From: an uncultured Lactobacillus sp. | GTDB taxonomy: Bacteria; Bacillota; Bacilli; Lactobacillales; Lactobacillaceae | Reading direction: 5' to 3' | Length of the DNA: 64,000 nucleotides | Assembly: GCA_910589675.1 (NCBI GenBank) | Contig: CAJUTO010000004.1 | Span: 42,088-106,087, forward strand | Position numbers and translations under genes: made by a program | Shown here: positions 486-43,724 of the stretch, in pieces | Position numbering within the stretch: position 1 is the stretch's first letter | Layout: every line of letters starts with the position of its first letter | Notes under the pieces: model-generated | Told to the model about the DNA's origin: nothing | The model's database searches: none | What the model saw: the letters and a program-made list of their open reading frames with translations, nothing else

Positions 486-2131
486 TAGAGACTAATACTA
501 ACAATGAAAAACCAGCTGCCGGAACTGTAACTGTTAATGTTGCTTTAGATGCAGGTGTTGGTACTACTGCTGATGCTGCTGCAAAGAGTGTTAAAGTTAC
601 TGTAGACGGCGCTTCACTTGCTGCTCAAGTTAACTCAGACTCAGTTAAGATCGTTAATGCTTCTGACAACAAGCCAGTTAACGGTAACCTTGAAGCAGGT
701 GGGTCATACAAGGTTCAAGTTAGTGGCTTGAAGCTTCAAGGCTTAACTACTGGTAACACTTATGCAATTGCTGGTGGTACTGTAGATGGAAAGACTTCTG
801 CAAGTGCTTCTACTTTATTAAACGGTACTACTTTTGTTAGTGACCAATTTACTATCTACAACAAGGACTTTACTGGTACTCCAGTTGTTACTAACAACGG
901 TCAACTTGTAACTAGTGGTTCTATTGAATTAAGTAATTCAACTGCTACTGTTTCAGGCTTAGCAGAACAAATCGACAACAACTACAAAGTAGTTAAGTCA
1001 GACAGTTCAGCAAGTGCTGATCCAGTTGGATTTGAAAATCTTGAAACTGCAATTAGAACTGCTTTGAAGGACAGCAAGATTTCATTGCAAAAGAAGGACA
1101 ACAACACTTTCGATGTTCCAGCCGCTAGCTTCACAATTAATGCTGTTGGTTACCTTAACAACGGTCAATCAGTAAAATTCCCAATTACTGTTAAGGTTCC
1201 AAACAGACCTCAACCAACTAATGTTCCAGAACTTAAGCTTTCAAGTAGCGCTGCTAAGGAATACTCTAACGGTACTACTGTAAATACTTACACTCGTAAA
1301 GTTGCTGTTGGTTCAAACGTAACTGCAGATTCAATTGCTAGTGACTTTAGTGCAACTCTTCCTAACAACAAGAACGTTAGCTTGAAGATCAATGTTAAAT
1401 CAAGTAACTTAAACACTGCTGTTGCTGGTAACTACACTGTAGTACTTGAAGCTACTGACAATGCAGGTAAGACTGGTACTGCTACTGTTAACGTACAAGT
1501 AGGTAATCCAGGTGTTACTAAGACTGTTTCAGCAGGCTCTGAAACTGCTAAGATTGTAACTATTAACGGCAACAACGTAACTACTACTAACGACACTTTA
1601 GAAAATGGTGCTAAGGTTAATACCTTCGGCACTACAAATGTTGGCGGCGTTTCATATACTCGTCTTAACAGTGGAGATTCTAACCAATACGTTGAAACTA
1701 AATACGTAGATGGTTCAATTAAGAATGAAACTGGTGTTGAAAAGACCATTATGCACAACGCTTACTACTACACTAAGGCTCAAGCTGAAGCTGGTAAGGG
1801 TGCTGCTGGTGAACATGGTGATCTTGTAAAGCGTTACAACAAGGTAACTGTTGTAGAAAAAACTGTTTCAATTAACGGTAAGACTTACTACAAGGTTCCT
1901 AACAAGGATCAATACATTAACGCTGATAACATTTCTGGTACTCCACGTACTTTAAAGCACAATGCATACGTATACGCAACTTCAAAGAAGCGCGCTAACA
2001 AGCAAGTATTGAAGAAGGGTACCAAGGTAACCACTTACGGTGCTCCATACAAGTTCAAGAACGGTAAGTCATACTACAAGGTATTTGACAACACTGAAAA
2101 GACTTACGTAAAGGTTGCTAACTTCGAATAA
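380..2131 (+). CDS. slp: S-layer protein (SLAP-domain)
   Basis: This is a 583-residue secreted surface-array protein. A Sec signal peptide (residues 1-29, cut after ANA) starts [19 protein letters not shown] and is identical to that of the second S-layer gene. Residues 36 to about 450 are the Ala/Thr/Val/Asn-rich variable assembly region, with no cysteine. Two SLAP repeats follow (about 453-515 and 523-583, each opening with a HNAY-type motif); these bind cell-wall polymers. The start is set by AAGGAGG at 363-369. Codon use is strongly biased, as in a highly expressed gene. It faces a convergent paralogue and shares with it a 251-bp 5' repeat and a 66-bp 3' repeat. Which copy is expressed cannot be read from sequence, although this flank has the poorer -35. 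Confidence 0.96.
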
Positions 2132-2164
2132 TTTAAGTAATTAAATTTTTCAGAATCAGTTCTT
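2099..2164 (+). repeat. Inner inverted repeat, copy 1 (66 bp)
   Basis: It covers the last ten or so codons and the start of the 3' UTR of the first S-layer gene. It matches the reverse complement of 2680-2745 with one mismatch. It is a second potential crossover site nested inside the outer repeats. Confidence 0.92.
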
Positions 2165-2169
2165 AATAA

Positions 2170-2228
2170 AAACGAGGCTTCCGTCCAATGTCTTAACTTA
2201 ATGACATTGGGCATCAGCCTCGTTTTTT
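2170..2228 (+). terminator. Terminator of the first S-layer gene
   Basis: A long two-part stem pairs AACGAGGCT with AGCCTCGTT and, inside it, CCAATGTC with GACATTGG. Six T follow at 2223-2228. Confidence 0.9.
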
Positions 2229-2647
2229 GCTATTCTCAATTAAAATTTGAATTATTCTTAACTTATAAAAAGAAGCAAATGCTGCTATTTTCGATATTCA
2301 ATAATGATTTTGGAACTAAAGATTAGGTAGCTAGAGTAGTTATGGTAATTTTTTAATCAGAGTTGAAACTTTTACTCGATTAATGTTCCAATCAAGCATA
2401 GTATTATGATACGTTTTTTATGGTAATTAGGGATAAAATTTTATCTTTCTTCGATTTTCTTCAATTTCATAATCTCCACCTTAATGATTTTAAATTTTGA
2501 TCTGGCTAAAATGGTGTACATCCATGAAAGCTATTAAATGTTAGTATCAATACTTGCAGAATTTAGACATTCCTCTAATTTATTTAATTAGAAAACAAAA
2601 GGTGACCATACAAGTCGCCTTTTTTATTTCCCAGGAAATTTAAGTAC
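2229..2647. other. Spacer between the two S-layer genes
   Basis: About 420 bp with no supportable gene. The only clear signal is a plus-strand hairpin at 2598-2627 (GGTGAC/GTCGCC stem followed by six T), which looks like an orphan terminator. The rest is AT-rich and gives no recognisable protein remnant. Confidence 0.6.
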
Positions 2648-2672
2648 AAAAAAACAGGACCCGAGAGCCCTG
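2648..2672 (-). terminator. Terminator of the second S-layer gene
   Basis: A hairpin (CAGGGC with GTCCTG on the minus strand) is followed by a seven-T tract. It differs from the terminator of the first copy although the 3' UTR before it is shared. Confidence 0.85.
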
Positions 2673-2679
2673 TTTTTCG

Positions 2680-2745
2680 AAGAACTGATTCTGAAAAATT
2701 TAATTGCTTAAATTATTCGAAGTTAGCAACCTTTACGTAAGTCTT
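2680..2745 (-). repeat. Inner inverted repeat, copy 2 (66 bp)
   Basis: This is the counterpart of 2099-2164, with one mismatch. It covers the 3' end of the second S-layer gene and the start of its 3' UTR. Confidence 0.92.
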
Positions 2746-4419
2746 ATCAGTGTTGTTACCGATCTTGTAGTATTGCTTACCGTTCTTGAACTTGTATGAA
2801 GCACCGTAAGTGGTTACCTTAGTACCCTTCTTCAATACTTGCTTGTTAGCACGCTTAGTTGAAGTCTTGTAGATGTAAGCATTGTGCTTCAAAGTACGTG
2901 AAGTACCATCGATGTTGTCAGCGTTGATGTAAAGGTTCTTGTTAGCAACCTTGTAGTAGCTCTTACCGTCAATTGAAACAAGCTTATCTACAACTGAGAT
3001 CTTGTTGTAACGAGTAATCTTATCAGTACCAACACGCTTGCCGTCCTTACCGTAGTAGTAAGCGTTGTGCATAATGGTCTTTTCAACACCAGTTTCAGCA
3101 GTGAATACTGAAGTTTCTACGAATTGGTTTGAAGTCTTTGAGTTGATGCGAGTGTATGATACACCATCAATAGTTTTAGTATCGAAGGTTGCGATGTTTG
3201 CACCAGCCTTAACAGTATCGTTAGTCTTGGTTGCAGTATTACCGTTAATAGTGTAGATGTTACCTTCTTGAGCAACAGTCTTGTATGAAGCATCCTTAGT
3301 ACCAACAGTTAAGTTGAAAGTAAGAACAACTGACTTACCGTTAGGGTTCTTAGCAGTTACAGTAACTGGGTAATTACCTGCAACAGCAGTGTTAACCTTT
3401 GAAGTATCTACTGAAACGCTCAAGTTGTTTGAGTCAGTTGATGAAACAACAGCCTTGAATGCCTCTTCGATAGCTTTAGTGTTTACAGTACCGTTAACAT
3501 CTACATTGTTGAAGCTTTCATTTGGCTTCAAAGTAATAGCTTGTGAGTGATCATACTTAGTGTTGTTGTAAGTAATGATTGGGTTTTCGCTGTAGTTAGC
3601 AGCTGCTTGGTATGCGTTAACAAGAACTGGGAAGCTAGTAGTCTTACCGTTGTTAGCCTTAACAGTTACGTTAACAGTAAATGCGTTTGCAGGAGCAGCG
3701 AATTTACCATTAGCATCTGGCTTAATACCAGCAGTGTTAAGTGATGAGTTAACATCAGCAGTTACATTGCTCCAGCTAGCCTTTGCAGTACCATCGATTG
3801 CAGGTGCATACTTGCTTTCGATTGCATTAACGATAGCTGATACAGTGTTTTCCTTTAATGAAACAGCACCAGTTGAAACAACATTGTTACCTTCCTTAAC
3901 GTAAGGAGTACCAGTTAATGAAGCATCAGTTAATTGGAATGCGTCACTAGTAAAGGTTACGTTTAAAGCAAGTGCACTTGCGCTGTAGTACTTGTTAGCG
4001 TTTGCAGTAGCATTTACAGTACCACCAGCGATTGAGTAGTTAGTACCGTTTACTAAGCCGTTGAAGCCTAAGCCACTAACTTCAACTTGGTAGCTGTCAG
4101 TAGCGTTTAATTTAGTTGAAAGATCAGTGATCTTCTTACCGTTAGCTAATAAGCTTACATTAGCAGTCTTGAAACCAACGAGGCTTGCACCAGTTGCTGA
4201 TAACTTAACACTGTTGATTGCATCTTGGGCAGTAGTCTTGCCAGCAGTAGCAGTTAAATCAACGTTTACAGTAACAGCGTTTGCAGCTTCAGTTGGGTTT
4301 TGAGTTGCTGGTGCGTTGTTAACAGTAACAGCGGCATTAGCAGTAACGGAAGAAGCAGCGATAGGAGCGACAGCCAAGAGGGCAGCAGCAGCGCTAACGA
4401 TTCTTAAATTTTTCTTCAT
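2713..4419 (-). CDS. slp: S-layer protein (SLAP-domain), second copy
   Basis: This is a 568-residue paralogue in convergent orientation. Its signal peptide and first 35 codons are identical in DNA to the first copy. The middle (about residues 36-440) is divergent and would give a different exposed surface. The C-terminal SLAP repeats (about 443-500 and 508-568) are again closely similar. AAGGAGG precedes the ATG by ten bases. The better promoter of the pair (TTGCGT, 17 bp, TACAAT) lies on this flank, which suggests, as inference, that this is the main expressed copy in the orientation shown. Inversion through the 5' repeats would exchange the two genes between the flanks. Confidence 0.96.
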
Positions 4420-40430: not shown

Positions 40431-40459
40431 CAAAAGACGACCTTTTTTACAGTCGTCTT
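40431..40459 (-). terminator. Terminator of the MerR-HTH coiled-coil gene
   Basis: AAGACGAC pairs with GTCGTCTT across a ten-base loop, followed by TTGTTTT on the minus strand. Confidence 0.75.
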
Positions 40460-40466
40460 CAAAATC

Positions 40467-41201
40467 TTAAGAATTTAGAAACCTTTGCCACCAATGCTTT
40501 TTTCTTTTCATTGGTATTTGCATATCTTCAAGGGTACGATGCACATTTGCTGTAGCACGCTTTTTAGCATTCTCCTTAGCTTTAGTGATAATTTCATCGT
40601 GAACTTGATCTTCATCTTCATCTTCACTTTCAATCTCGCGTTCTTCTTCACGAGTTTGTGGAATTTCCACATTTTTTTCTTCCGGTGCTGCCAAAGCTGG
40701 CTTTTCTGCCTGATCCGCTGGTGCTGCAAGCTCTTTTTGCTTTTCTAATAGCTCTTGATTTTGCTTTTCCACTCTAGTTAATTGCTTTTGTAAAGAATCA
40801 ATTGCTTGATTTTGATTAGCAATTGTTTGTTGTAAAGTATTAAGCAATTTTACAACTTCTTGCGTATCCATCAGATCAGTAGCAATTGCCTGACTTTTTT
40901 CTTTTTCTGCGCGCTTCTTATCTTCAGTTTTTTTATCACTAACCGCATAAATTTGTCTGGCAGCTTCTTGGAGAGTTAAATTGCTCTTTTTTGAAAGTTG
41001 TTGGAAAGCGTCTAAATCACTAATATCTTGCTTACGATATAAACGTGCTTTTTGCTTAGTTCTCTCATAATAATCACTATTGCCCGTAACTTTTTCTACG
41101 ATCAATGAATACTTTCTCAGCGTAGCAACACTAATTCCTAGTTCTTTTGCAGCAACAGAAGGTGTTGCAAGTTCCTCAAAATCATGTTTGTTACTTGTCA
41201 T
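40467..41201 (-). CDS. MerR-type HTH, coiled-coil protein (RacA-like layout)
   Basis: A 244-residue protein. Residues 10-65 form a MerR-like winged helix (TPSVAAKELGISVATLRKYSLIVE). A coiled coil spans about 110-165 (repeating Leu/Gln, IDSLQKQLTRVEKQNQELLEK), then an Ala/Pro/Glu acidic stretch and a short basic aromatic end, KRKKHWWQRFLNS, that could dip into a membrane. The layout resembles RacA-like chromosome-anchoring proteins rather than a metabolite-sensing MerR. It is its own unit between ddl and the YibE/F operon. Confidence 0.75.
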   Translation of the reverse strand: MTSNKHDFEELATPSVAAKELGISVATLRKYSLIVEKVTGNSDYYERTKQKARLYRKQDISDLDAFQQLSKKSNLTLQEAARQIYAVSDKKTEDKKRAEKEKSQAIATDLMDTQEVVKLLNTLQQTIANQNQAIDSLQKQLTRVEKQNQELLEKQKELAAPADQAEKPALAAPEEKNVEIPQTREEEREIESEDEDEDQVHDEIITKAKENAKKRATANVHRTLEDMQIPMKRKKHWWQRFLNS

Positions 41202-41231: not shown

Positions 41232-42314
41232 TTAATCATGCTTGTGAAGCAAATTCTTCTTATGGTCAAATCTTTCTTGACCTGCTTCTATTAAGCGAGT
41301 AATTAATTCTGTGTAAGGAATACCTGCTTCTTCAAAAAGCTTTGGATACATACTAATATTAGTAAAACCTGGCAAAGCATTAACCTCAGTCAATACCACC
41401 TTACCATCTGAGGTAAGCATAGAATCAATTCTAGCTAAGCCTGAACATTCAGTTGCTTGGTAAACCTTTAAAGCATTTGAACGAACAGTTTCTACAATAT
41501 CATCAGGTAAGTCTGCAGGAATTTGAAGCTTAGAAGTTGAATCATCATCATATTTATTTTCATAAGTATAAAATGAGCCTTTTGCATTGGTAATTTGTCC
41601 AACGCCTGCTACAATTGGATTATCGTTTCCTAAAACTGCAGTTTCAACTTCAGTACCAGGAACAGTTTCTTCAACTAAAACTTTGTCATCATATTTGAAG
41701 GCTTCTTCAAGAGCAGCTTCATATTCAGCTGCATTAGTTACATGACTAACCCCAACTGAAGAACCTTGGTTTGAAGGCTTAACAAATAAGTCAGTACCCA
41801 ATTTTTCGGCCACCTTATCATAGTTAAGCTTGTCATTTGACTTATCGTCAAATTCAAATCGTTTTACGGCAATCCAATTAGCCACTGGAACTCCAACACG
41901 TTGAGACAAAATCTTAGTGAATTCCTTGTCCATAGTTACAGCAGCTGCCAAGACATCATCACCAACAAATGGCTTGTTTAAAATTCTAAATAAACCTTGT
42001 AAACTTCCGTCTTCACCTAAGTTTCCGTGAACAATTGGGAAAAAGATGTCAATTTCTGGTAAATTAGCAAGTTCAACCAAGTTGGAAATGTTGTTTACTT
42101 TATATGGATTCTTTACTTGATAAGTTGGATCTTCTAAAACTTTAAAAGATTCTTCCTCGTTAGCAAAATATCCATCATTAGTAATCCAGATTGGATGTAC
42201 ATCAAATTTATCTTTGTCAATTGCTTTATAAATGTTGTGACCTGAAACGATAGATACTTCATATTCTGATGAGTTTCCACCGAAAATTAGTCCGACTTGT
42301 GTTTTTTTAGTCAT
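41232..42314 (-). CDS. ddl: D-alanine--D-alanine ligase
   Basis: A 360-residue ATP-grasp enzyme making the D-Ala-D-Ala (or D-Ala-D-Lac) end of the murein precursor. GGNSSEYEVS opens the N-domain, HGNLGEDGSLQGLF is the first signature and EVNALPGFTNISMYPKL the second. The active-site loop position (FYTYENKYDD, near residue 255) has a Tyr in the omega-loop region, while lactobacilli with D-Lac ends usually have Phe; the residue should be checked by alignment. It acts with the D-Asp ligase in wall synthesis. Confidence 0.94.
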   Translation of the reverse strand: MTKKTQVGLIFGGNSSEYEVSIVSGHNIYKAIDKDKFDVHPIWITNDGYFANEEESFKVLEDPTYQVKNPYKVNNISNLVELANLPEIDIFFPIVHGNLGEDGSLQGLFRILNKPFVGDDVLAAAVTMDKEFTKILSQRVGVPVANWIAVKRFEFDDKSNDKLNYDKVAEKLGTDLFVKPSNQGSSVGVSHVTNAAEYEAALEEAFKYDDKVLVEETVPGTEVETAVLGNDNPIVAGVGQITNAKGSFYTYENKYDDDSTSKLQIPADLPDDIVETVRSNALKVYQATECSGLARIDSMLTSDGKVVLTEVNALPGFTNISMYPKLFEEAGIPYTELITRLIEAGQERFDHKKNLLHKHD

Positions 42315-42464
42315 TTTGTTTTCTACCTCTTAATAATAGTTACCATTTCTTAATTATACGCAATAATGACCAGAAATGATGAAAAAGTAGGAACATTTTT
42401 TACTAAAGCCCTTTCACGATGGGTTATAATTAATTTGAATAGAAAAAAGAAAGGATGAATGATT

Positions 42465-43724
42465 ATGCTTCTACATAAGTTTTCATTGCTTGCAGCTTGC
42501 TTATTGATAGCTACGCCAGCACTTTCAGCTAGTACAACTGCCCAAGCCGCAACATTCAGCACAACTGAAATAAAACAAGTTCACCACTTTCAACAAGAAT
42601 ACGCCGATTTAAATAAAACTAACTATGATAGTTCTACTCTTTATTCAAAAACCCCGCATTTAAGCCGAAAGTTTAACGCTGGGCAAATTACAGATAAATA
42701 TGCGGATAGTCAACTTCAATATATTAACTACTATCGGAGTTTATTTGGACTGCCTCCAGTTAGTGAAAATAAAACAGCACAAAAGAATGCTCAAAAAACG
42801 GCGGCTGTTATGGCAGCCATTAATGCAAATCCGTTTGTTAATCAACATGGATTGCCAACTGAAACTCGTCCAGCTTATGTAAGTAAGTCAATGTGGAAGG
42901 TCGCTCAAGATACTTCTGAGACTTCTAATTTAAACTTTAACGTAAGTAACCAATCTGCTGGGGACGTGATTACAGATTTACTTACTGATCACTACAATCT
43001 TTCCGGATCGGACACAGGACACCGGGCATGGATTTTATCTACACGACTTTCTTCAACTGGAGTTGGAGCTGCTTACGGTACAAACGGTTATCGTTACTCG
43101 GTTCAAAAAGTGCTTAACGTTGATGACCTTTTCCGCGAATCCAGCCAACCTGTTGTAGCTTACCCAAGCACTGGAGTATTTCCGATTGAATTAACCAAAG
43201 GTAAGAACATCGCTTGGTCCCTTTATTTGTCAGATAAAGGGATTAAGAATGATCCTAAAATCACTATCACTGATAAGGATTTAGATCAAACTTACACAGC
43301 TACTAACGTTAAGAATTACAGTAAATCAGGCTATGGCAATTTCAAGAGCGTCATAACTTATTCCCCAGGCAAAACTCCTATTGTGGCTGGTCATGAATAT
43401 GAAGTCAAAATTGGGGATGCTTATACATACACTTTCAAACTCTTCAAGCAAGATACTAATACCAATGCAATGACTACTACAACGGCAGCAGTTGCCACAC
43501 CAAAACCACGGACATATCAATATGTATCATCACAACAACATGATACTAATTTGAAGTCTCCACTTTTAGTCCAAGGCGAAAAGTATTGGGCTACAACCTT
43601 GTCTCCCAAAAGCAAGTCAAATACACAAACTCCAAACTACTTTGACACACTGAAAAAGGGCCAATGGCACCGTAACTTTTTTGCGAGGCAAGCTTTTCTC
43701 AGCAAACAATTTTTACAAAATTAA
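42465..43724 (+). CDS. Secreted CAP (SCP/PR-1) domain protein
   Basis: A 419-residue exported protein. The signal peptide (residues 1-27, cut after AQA) starts at the second ATG, which is nine bases from AAAGGA. A CAP domain lies at about 75-200 (YADSQLQYINYYRSLFGLPPVSEN; HYNLSGSDTGHRAWILST; STGVGAAYG). The rest (about 215-419) is an Ig-like beta region and a basic tail, without LPXTG or SLAP. It may be cell-wall-associated. It is divergent from ddl, with a TATAAT at 42424. Confidence 0.87.
   Translation: MLLHKFSLLAACLLIATPALSASTTAQAATFSTTEIKQVHHFQQEYADLNKTNYDSSTLYSKTPHLSRKFNAGQITDKYADSQLQYINYYRSLFGLPPVSENKTAQKNAQKTAAVMAAINANPFVNQHGLPTETRPAYVSKSMWKVAQDTSETSNLNFNVSNQSAGDVITDLLTDHYNLSGSDTGHRAWILSTRLSSTGVGAAYGTNGYRYSVQKVLNVDDLFRESSQPVVAYPSTGVFPIELTKGKNIAWSLYLSDKGIKNDPKITITDKDLDQTYTATNVKNYSKSGYGNFKSVITYSPGKTPIVAGHEYEVKIGDAYTYTFKLFKQDTNTNAMTTTTAAVATPKPRTYQYVSSQQHDTNLKSPLLVQGEKYWATTLSPKSKSNTQTPNYFDTLKKGQWHRNFFARQAFLSKQFLQN

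Follow-up and report, generated by a model that had tools for sequence, protein, structure and literature searches.

Is the protein encoded beside ddl in an uncultured Lactobacillus sp. an ordinary regulator of the MerR family, or does it link the chromosome to the cell membrane? To our knowledge, few proteins are recognized as DNA-membrane tethers, namely RocS, RacA acting through DivIVA, and Noc. The gene lies within a stretch of 64,000 nucleotides, here called the window, and a sequence-only reading had suggested for its product a role as nucleoid-membrane tether of RacA type. Judged from its sequence and structure prediction, the product is probably a peripheral membrane protein that tethers chromosomal DNA to the cytoplasmic membrane, RocS-like in this respect, while forming a separate family without DUF536. 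The argument draws on the following features:

40467..41201, minus strand: whole gene, a 244-aa ORF with ATG start, comprising a MerR-type winged helix-turn-helix (wHTH), a coiled coil, an acidic linker and a membrane-targeting-type tail
41232..42314, minus strand: ddl, D-alanine-D-alanine ligase, upstream neighbour of the tether-candidate gene across a 30-bp gap
40941..41171, minus strand: MerR-type wHTH, residues 11-87 (Pfam MerR_1 under cut-off, pLDDT, Foldseek)
40725..40865, minus strand: coiled-coil-type helix, about residues 113-159 (AlphaFold2 helix 112-158 in numbering without Met1)
40602..40724, minus strand: acidic low-confidence linker, about residues 160-200 (block pLDDT 41-60)
40518..40538, minus strand: conserved short motif RTLEDMQ, residues 222-228, a possible docking site
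40470..40508, minus strand: basic/aromatic tail KRKKHWWQRFLNS, residues 232-244, a candidate amphipathic membrane-targeting sequence
40433..40460, minus strand: terminator-like hairpin after the stop codon of the tether-candidate gene

Gene neighbourhood and domain layout

The 244-residue ORF, preceded by a Shine-Dalgarno-like AGGGG 9 nt before its ATG and ending in the basic/aromatic C-terminus listed above, sits beside ddl on a 106-kb contig. Because ddl lies 30 bp upstream and a hairpin follows the stop codon, the two genes probably form one transcript, with yibE/yibF, further downstream, probably outside it; the 2.2-kb stretch contains three terminator-like hairpins, where chance alone would give 1.2. 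At window positions 42459-43724 (+), a CAP-domain protein (Pfam CAP, E 1.8e-9) is transcribed away from ddl. For comparison, we used relatives found through one HTH peptide pattern, of which 96 were confirmed and the best 80 of the 96 kept; these named relatives are titled Lactobacillus, Agrilactobacillus, Companilactobacillus, Lapidilactobacillus and Loigolactobacillus. The ddl gene is upstream in 38 of the 80 loci, which are all 38 with E ≤2e-46 (L093-L129, L135). Neither ddl nor yibE/yibF was present in the available flanks of the remaining 42, four of which are titled Lactobacillus (L131, L133, L143, L171).

The MerR-type head of the protein is weak in Pfam and clear in the predicted fold. 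MerR_1 matches at E 9.5e-4, with 19.7 bits against a gathering score of 21.6, and reaches E ≤0.01 in 23 of 31 relatives. In an AlphaFold2 model built from 50 sequences (mean pLDDT 77.9, pTM 0.43; numbered without Met1), a winged HTH is predicted with residue blocks 11-80 averaging above 90. Helices follow at 112-158 and 194-217, separated by a low-confidence stretch at ~161-193, and the tail contains a short helix at 236-241 with block means of 78 and 70. The four parts named by the sequence-only reading, a MerR-HTH head, a long coiled coil, an acidic linker and a membrane-seeking tail, are thus recovered, the last as a candidate defined by its sequence pattern and the short modelled helix. 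Searching the PDB with Foldseek gave 215 matches at E ≤10. The lowest E-values belong to MerR regulators, among them HiNmlR (5d90, E 7.8e-4), and the highest target-normalised TM-score among the best 50 of the 215 belongs to the DNA-binding domain of RacA (5i44_K; TMt 0.87, rmsd 1.3 Å, 69 columns, E 5.8e-3). As this score favours short chains, the match speaks for the same fold rather than for closest kinship. A sequence search of the PDB returned only MerR regulators and coiled-coil proteins, with weak E-values.

MerR_1 and the best Foldseek hits are what one would expect of an ordinary MerR-family regulator acting on a few promoters, such as those of its own operon or of the neighbouring yibE/yibF, with the tail serving protein contact. 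The top NCBIfam match, the repressor HspR (E 2.8e-5, though 24 of 105 bits; matched weakly by 28 of the 31 relatives), and the annotation of some plasmid relatives as 'MerR family transcriptional regulator' point the same way. We nevertheless consider this reading unlikely. Pfam and NCBIfam find no effector or metal-binding domain at the C-terminus, whereas the protein does have a 47-residue helix and a membrane-type tail; moreover, the tail is kept although no ddl or yib genes were detected next to 42 of the 80 named relatives, and two plasmid relatives lie directly behind rep.

Returning to the layout of a putative tether, the head and tail are kept across relatives, whereas a variable segment and the linker diverge. 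Pairwise identity averaged over 50 aligned rows is 54% in the head, 53% in the tail and 44% in the TLEDMQ region, as compared to 32% in the coiled coil, 28% in the helix before TLEDMQ, 17% in the linker and 8% in the variable segment. The linker, which in the window protein bears the acidic run ESEDEDEDQ, reaches 35% in the 29 Lactobacillus rows. Ratios of pN/pS, which are rough because they come from the five rows of the window group with pS near saturation, are 0.22 for the HTH, 0.32 for the coiled coil, 0.14 for the helix, 0.07 for the TLEDMQ stretch (residues 217-228 without Met1) and 0.23 for the tail, and 0.62 and 0.69 for the two variable parts. A TLxxMQ-like motif recurs in 54 of the 80 named relatives. 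Elsewhere in the genus, the TLxDMQ DNA pattern occurs at seven places, all of which were followed up and attributed to chance: six lie in longer ORFs (by eye, three prenyl-synthase-like, two DegV-like and one integrase-like) and one in a frame of 33 residues.

To gauge how unusual the C-terminal tail is, we used as controls the 643 other ORFs from the loci of the 80 named relatives. Because these relatives had been gathered by an HTH pattern, the search did not itself select for the tail. A WW pair falls within the last 12 residues of 78 of the 80 relatives and of 4 of the 643 controls, and the pattern [K/R]..phi-phi-x-[K/R]-phi-phi lies within the last 14 residues of 70 relatives and 13 controls; the relatives are interrelated, so that these counts are not independent draws. 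Twelve of the 13 fitting controls form one ABC-ATPase group, and in the window the pattern occurs in 2 of 53 ORFs, the tether candidate and that ABC ATPase. Scoring for amphipathic, basic and aromatic tails picks out 64/80 relatives versus 26/643 controls, and the muH of the last 11 residues of the window protein is 0.47, with 0.23-0.48 in six comparison tails (RocS-type and plasmid). The hydrophobic residues vary from tail to tail (WWQRFL, FWSRLF, LFSRMF, IWHKLF). By eye, 18 of 20 distant relatives from the class-wide search end basic-aromatic, some loosely (for example TLRMLFGLLPKKHKEA), and two (L225 and L229) are without such a tail. In the G148 orthologue (L011), an internal TAA leaves 183 residues and the tail is lost, meaning either that the tail is dispensable or that the stop is a sequencing error. 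What counts against a tether is the moderate model confidence of the tail helix, and the two Trp of the tail could serve protein contact.

Such contact is the core of a further alternative, in which the protein is a tether whose tail sits on a protein of the pole or septum, for instance DivIVA, FtsZ or a capsule kinase, instead of on lipid. This would be the logic of RacA from Bacillus subtilis, which reaches the membrane through DivIVA, without a lipid-binding tail of its own, and acts in sporulation (PMC6593407). The window protein resembles RacA in its predicted MerR-type DNA-binding fold followed by a coiled coil, and its TLxxMQ motif suggests a partner. On the other hand, a tail of MinD/RocS pattern whose hydrophobic residues vary would be expected of a lipid anchor rather than of a precise docking peptide, and we judge anchoring by protein to be quite unlikely. 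Kinship with RacA was addressed with NF009646 (displayed as PRK13182.1-1), which we take to be the RacA profile. It has no match in the window genome, and among 14 control genomes only B. subtilis matches, below cut-off; membership of the RacA family was rejected on this ground. Of the proposed nucleoid-membrane tether of RacA type, the tether remains plausible and the RacA-like DNA-binding fold holds, whereas the attribution to RacA does not, given the unmatched profile, the anchoring of RacA via DivIVA and the closer functional match offered by RocS.

Occurrence in the genus and on plasmids

Within the genus, 68 of 75 genomes match, with one copy each, including all 60 good genomes (≥90% complete and ≤5% contaminated); the seven without a match are G646, which is 7% contaminated, and six genomes only 57-79% complete. 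At family level, the single sequence finds a match in 68 of 301 genomes, covering 12 of 40 genera. Profile searches matched 54 of 299 genomes of the class at E ≤1e-6 and 85 of 395 genomes of the order at E ≤1e-3, 48 of the latter at E <1e-12. The other 37 order-level matches were rejected as family members, since they have E ≥9e-6 and many cover the coiled-coil stretch alone, some the HTH. No phage relatives were found by tblastn against phages at E ≤1e-3; phrog_3470, whose function is unassigned, matches residues 10-241 at E 1.5e-9. In the open-access literature searched, we found no paper on this Lactobacillus protein.

On contig C16 of the window genome lie the genes for ParA and two ParB-type proteins, one of the latter Noc-like by our naming. 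A chimeric window contig, considered because of genome G037 labelled 'same species', was not supported, the ParA/ParB contig being distant as well (72% DNA identity). The label itself looks wrong, with 72% at the ParA/ParB locus and 57% in the tether-candidate protein. Contig C1 of genome G343 carries six relatives of near-equal score at a spacing of ~5.97 kb (at 1515, 7481, 13446, 19410, 25369 and 31308), representing either a concatenated plasmid or a fault of assembly.

Relatives were also detected by tblastn on 13 plasmid records from Carnobacterium, Planococcus, Parageobacillus and Pediococcus, four of which were examined in detail; in two of these four, rep directly precedes the relative. 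On Carnobacterium pCP1 the relative lies 66 bp behind rep and carries KKGLFSRMFKKK, with 11 more residues to the C-terminal end, and on Carnobacterium pA1P2 it lies 13 bp behind rep, with KKGIFSRLFHKKE at the C-terminal end. These two proteins share with the window protein their tblastn kinship, a MerR_1-type head and a KKG-[LI]-FSR-type C-terminal stretch, but are shorter and plasmid-borne. On the Planococcus plasmid, three annotated genes separate rep from a relative ending in GLWARIWNK, and on the Pediococcus plasmid, where the stretch has no annotated rep, the annotation splits the relative into two short ORFs. Repeats upstream of rep on pCP1 and pA1P2 are spaced by 22 bp and look like ordinary iterons. 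The rep-adjacent position suits a partition or rep-accessory role. That the Lactobacillus gene is just a leftover of this kind without a chromosomal role, as the 13 plasmid records and the weak matches to NCBIfam NF038291 (plasmid replication DNA-binding protein; 10 of 31 relatives, best E 4.9e-6) could be read, is highly improbable in view of its single copy in 60/60 good genus genomes, the low pN/pS of head and tail, and its constant position after ddl in the 38 nearest named loci.

Comparison with RocS, pSK1 Par and Noc

RocS of Streptococcus pneumoniae is described as a regulator of chromosome segregation built from an N-terminal wHTH of MerR type, a coiled coil and a MinD-like amphipathic C-terminus (PMC11500499, PMC13042908). 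It is needed for the chromosomes to segregate and has ParB as an interaction partner. According to these sources and PMC13404961, a single RocS tail is insufficient for membrane binding, oligomerisation being required, and DUF536 is required for segregation in the pneumococcus, which is stated to be without ParA (PMC11500499). By its sequence, the window protein has a similar layout, with a wHTH leading into a coiled coil and a tail of MinD/RocS pattern. Unlike RocS, it is devoid of DUF536 and its conserved glutamines, it has an added acidic linker and TLxDMQ motif, and its genome has ParA. DUF536 (PF04394) gave no match in the window protein at E ≤1 in Pfam and is not among the 25 of 28 Pfam families listed for the 31 aligned relatives. 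It occurs in 0 of 15 genomes of the window genus and in 74 of 301 genomes of the family, where 11 of 12 retrieved loci come from contigs <20 kb.

DUF536 proteins are carried by 20 genomes of the genus g43, whose streptococcus-like nature is presumed and for which the count has no denominator. Thirteen of the 20 were aligned and three checked in Pfam, which assigns three RocS-type heads to HTH families other than MerR_1. The g43 tails resemble the window tail (KKGFFARLFGK, KKGFWAKLFGK, RKGFWSRLFGN). The genus is absent from the 54 class-wide matches of the window-family profile, with 15 g43 genomes listed as unmatched, and in the order-wide search one g43 genome (G529) gave a weak match at 2.5e-4 over the coiled-coil part. 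Profile-profile comparison aligned HTH columns and nothing else: 17 for the streptococcus-like set, at a probability of 82.9, and 18 for the plasmid-type DUF536 set, at 95.6. As the match to the RocS-type set comprises only 17 HTH columns, the likeness may be convergent: such a machine was built twice, or has diverged beyond recognition. Because DUF536 is absent and the profile match is confined to HTH columns, membership of the RocS (DUF536) family was rejected.

Aromatic ends were also seen elsewhere. DUF536 proteins of lactobacilli and other Lactobacillales (L052-L062, L195, L199), mostly on short contigs, have the tails WWKFW, WWHFW and WWQIW, and our reading is that they are plasmid Par-like proteins with an aromatic anchor. 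In the window's own genome, two proteins next to genes that by eye look capsule-kinase-like (L205, offsets 2070-2841 (-); L206, offsets 2117-2891 (+)) have the basic-aromatic ends KKKKRFWIF and KKKKKFWLF.

Par of the staphylococcal plasmid pSK1 is another protein of similar build, with a wHTH, a coiled coil and a RocS/MinD-like tail; according to PMC11500499 it is plasmid-borne and predicted to contain DUF536, whereas the window protein is without DUF536 and lies beside ddl. The pSK1 Par structure 8csh is absent among the best 50 of the 215 Foldseek matches. Noc, finally, is a DNA-membrane tether in which a DNA-binding protein carries its own amphipathic membrane helix, a combination that the window protein may share through its candidate helix. 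Noc differs in its ParB-type fold and in the N-terminal position of the helix, and the window genome encodes the Noc-like ParB paralogue separately. Since this Noc-like gene is present and Noc is itself a tether, no second tether is required; given ParA and two ParB-type proteins, the window protein would constitute an additional link, not the sole segregation system.

A putative link between nucleoid and membrane

The feature set exceeds chance, to judge from its conservation as a single copy across the genus, the low pN/pS in the HTH, coiled coil, TLEDMQ motif and tail, and the rarity of the tail in controls. For the RocS-like tether that we favour, we infer DNA binding, oligomerisation, membrane binding and a role in segregation. 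The MerR-type wHTH would bind DNA and the coiled coil would make dimers or higher oligomers, in which several copies of the weak WW tail would jointly enter the inner leaflet. The long acidic linker would give the DNA-binding and membrane-binding ends room to separate, and the TLEDMQ motif may serve to dock a partner. In this way, the protein would contribute to nucleoid organisation or segregation alongside the cell's own ParA and ParB-type proteins.

More tentatively, and with a conviction well below that for the tether itself, we envisage a Bacilli-wide family of one-protein DNA partition systems, on chromosomes and, beside rep, on plasmids, that would combine a RacA-type DNA-binding domain with a lipid-binding tail of RocS/MinD type. 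In Lactobacillus, a plasmid-type member might have become a fixed chromosomal gene behind ddl, gained the TLxDMQ motif for docking a cell-cycle partner, and now provide a further tether in addition to ParA/ParB. On this view there would be at least two independent solutions, RocS being one of them, with both the direction of this change and the independence hypothetical.

If the tether reading is true, all good Lactobacillus genomes searched encode an unrecognised nucleoid-membrane link, present beside ParA and two ParB-type genes. The absence of DUF536 would test whether this domain is necessary for such segregation or merely one route to it. Finally, the relatives adjoining rep genes on plasmids hint that there is a class of single-protein partition systems that has received little study.
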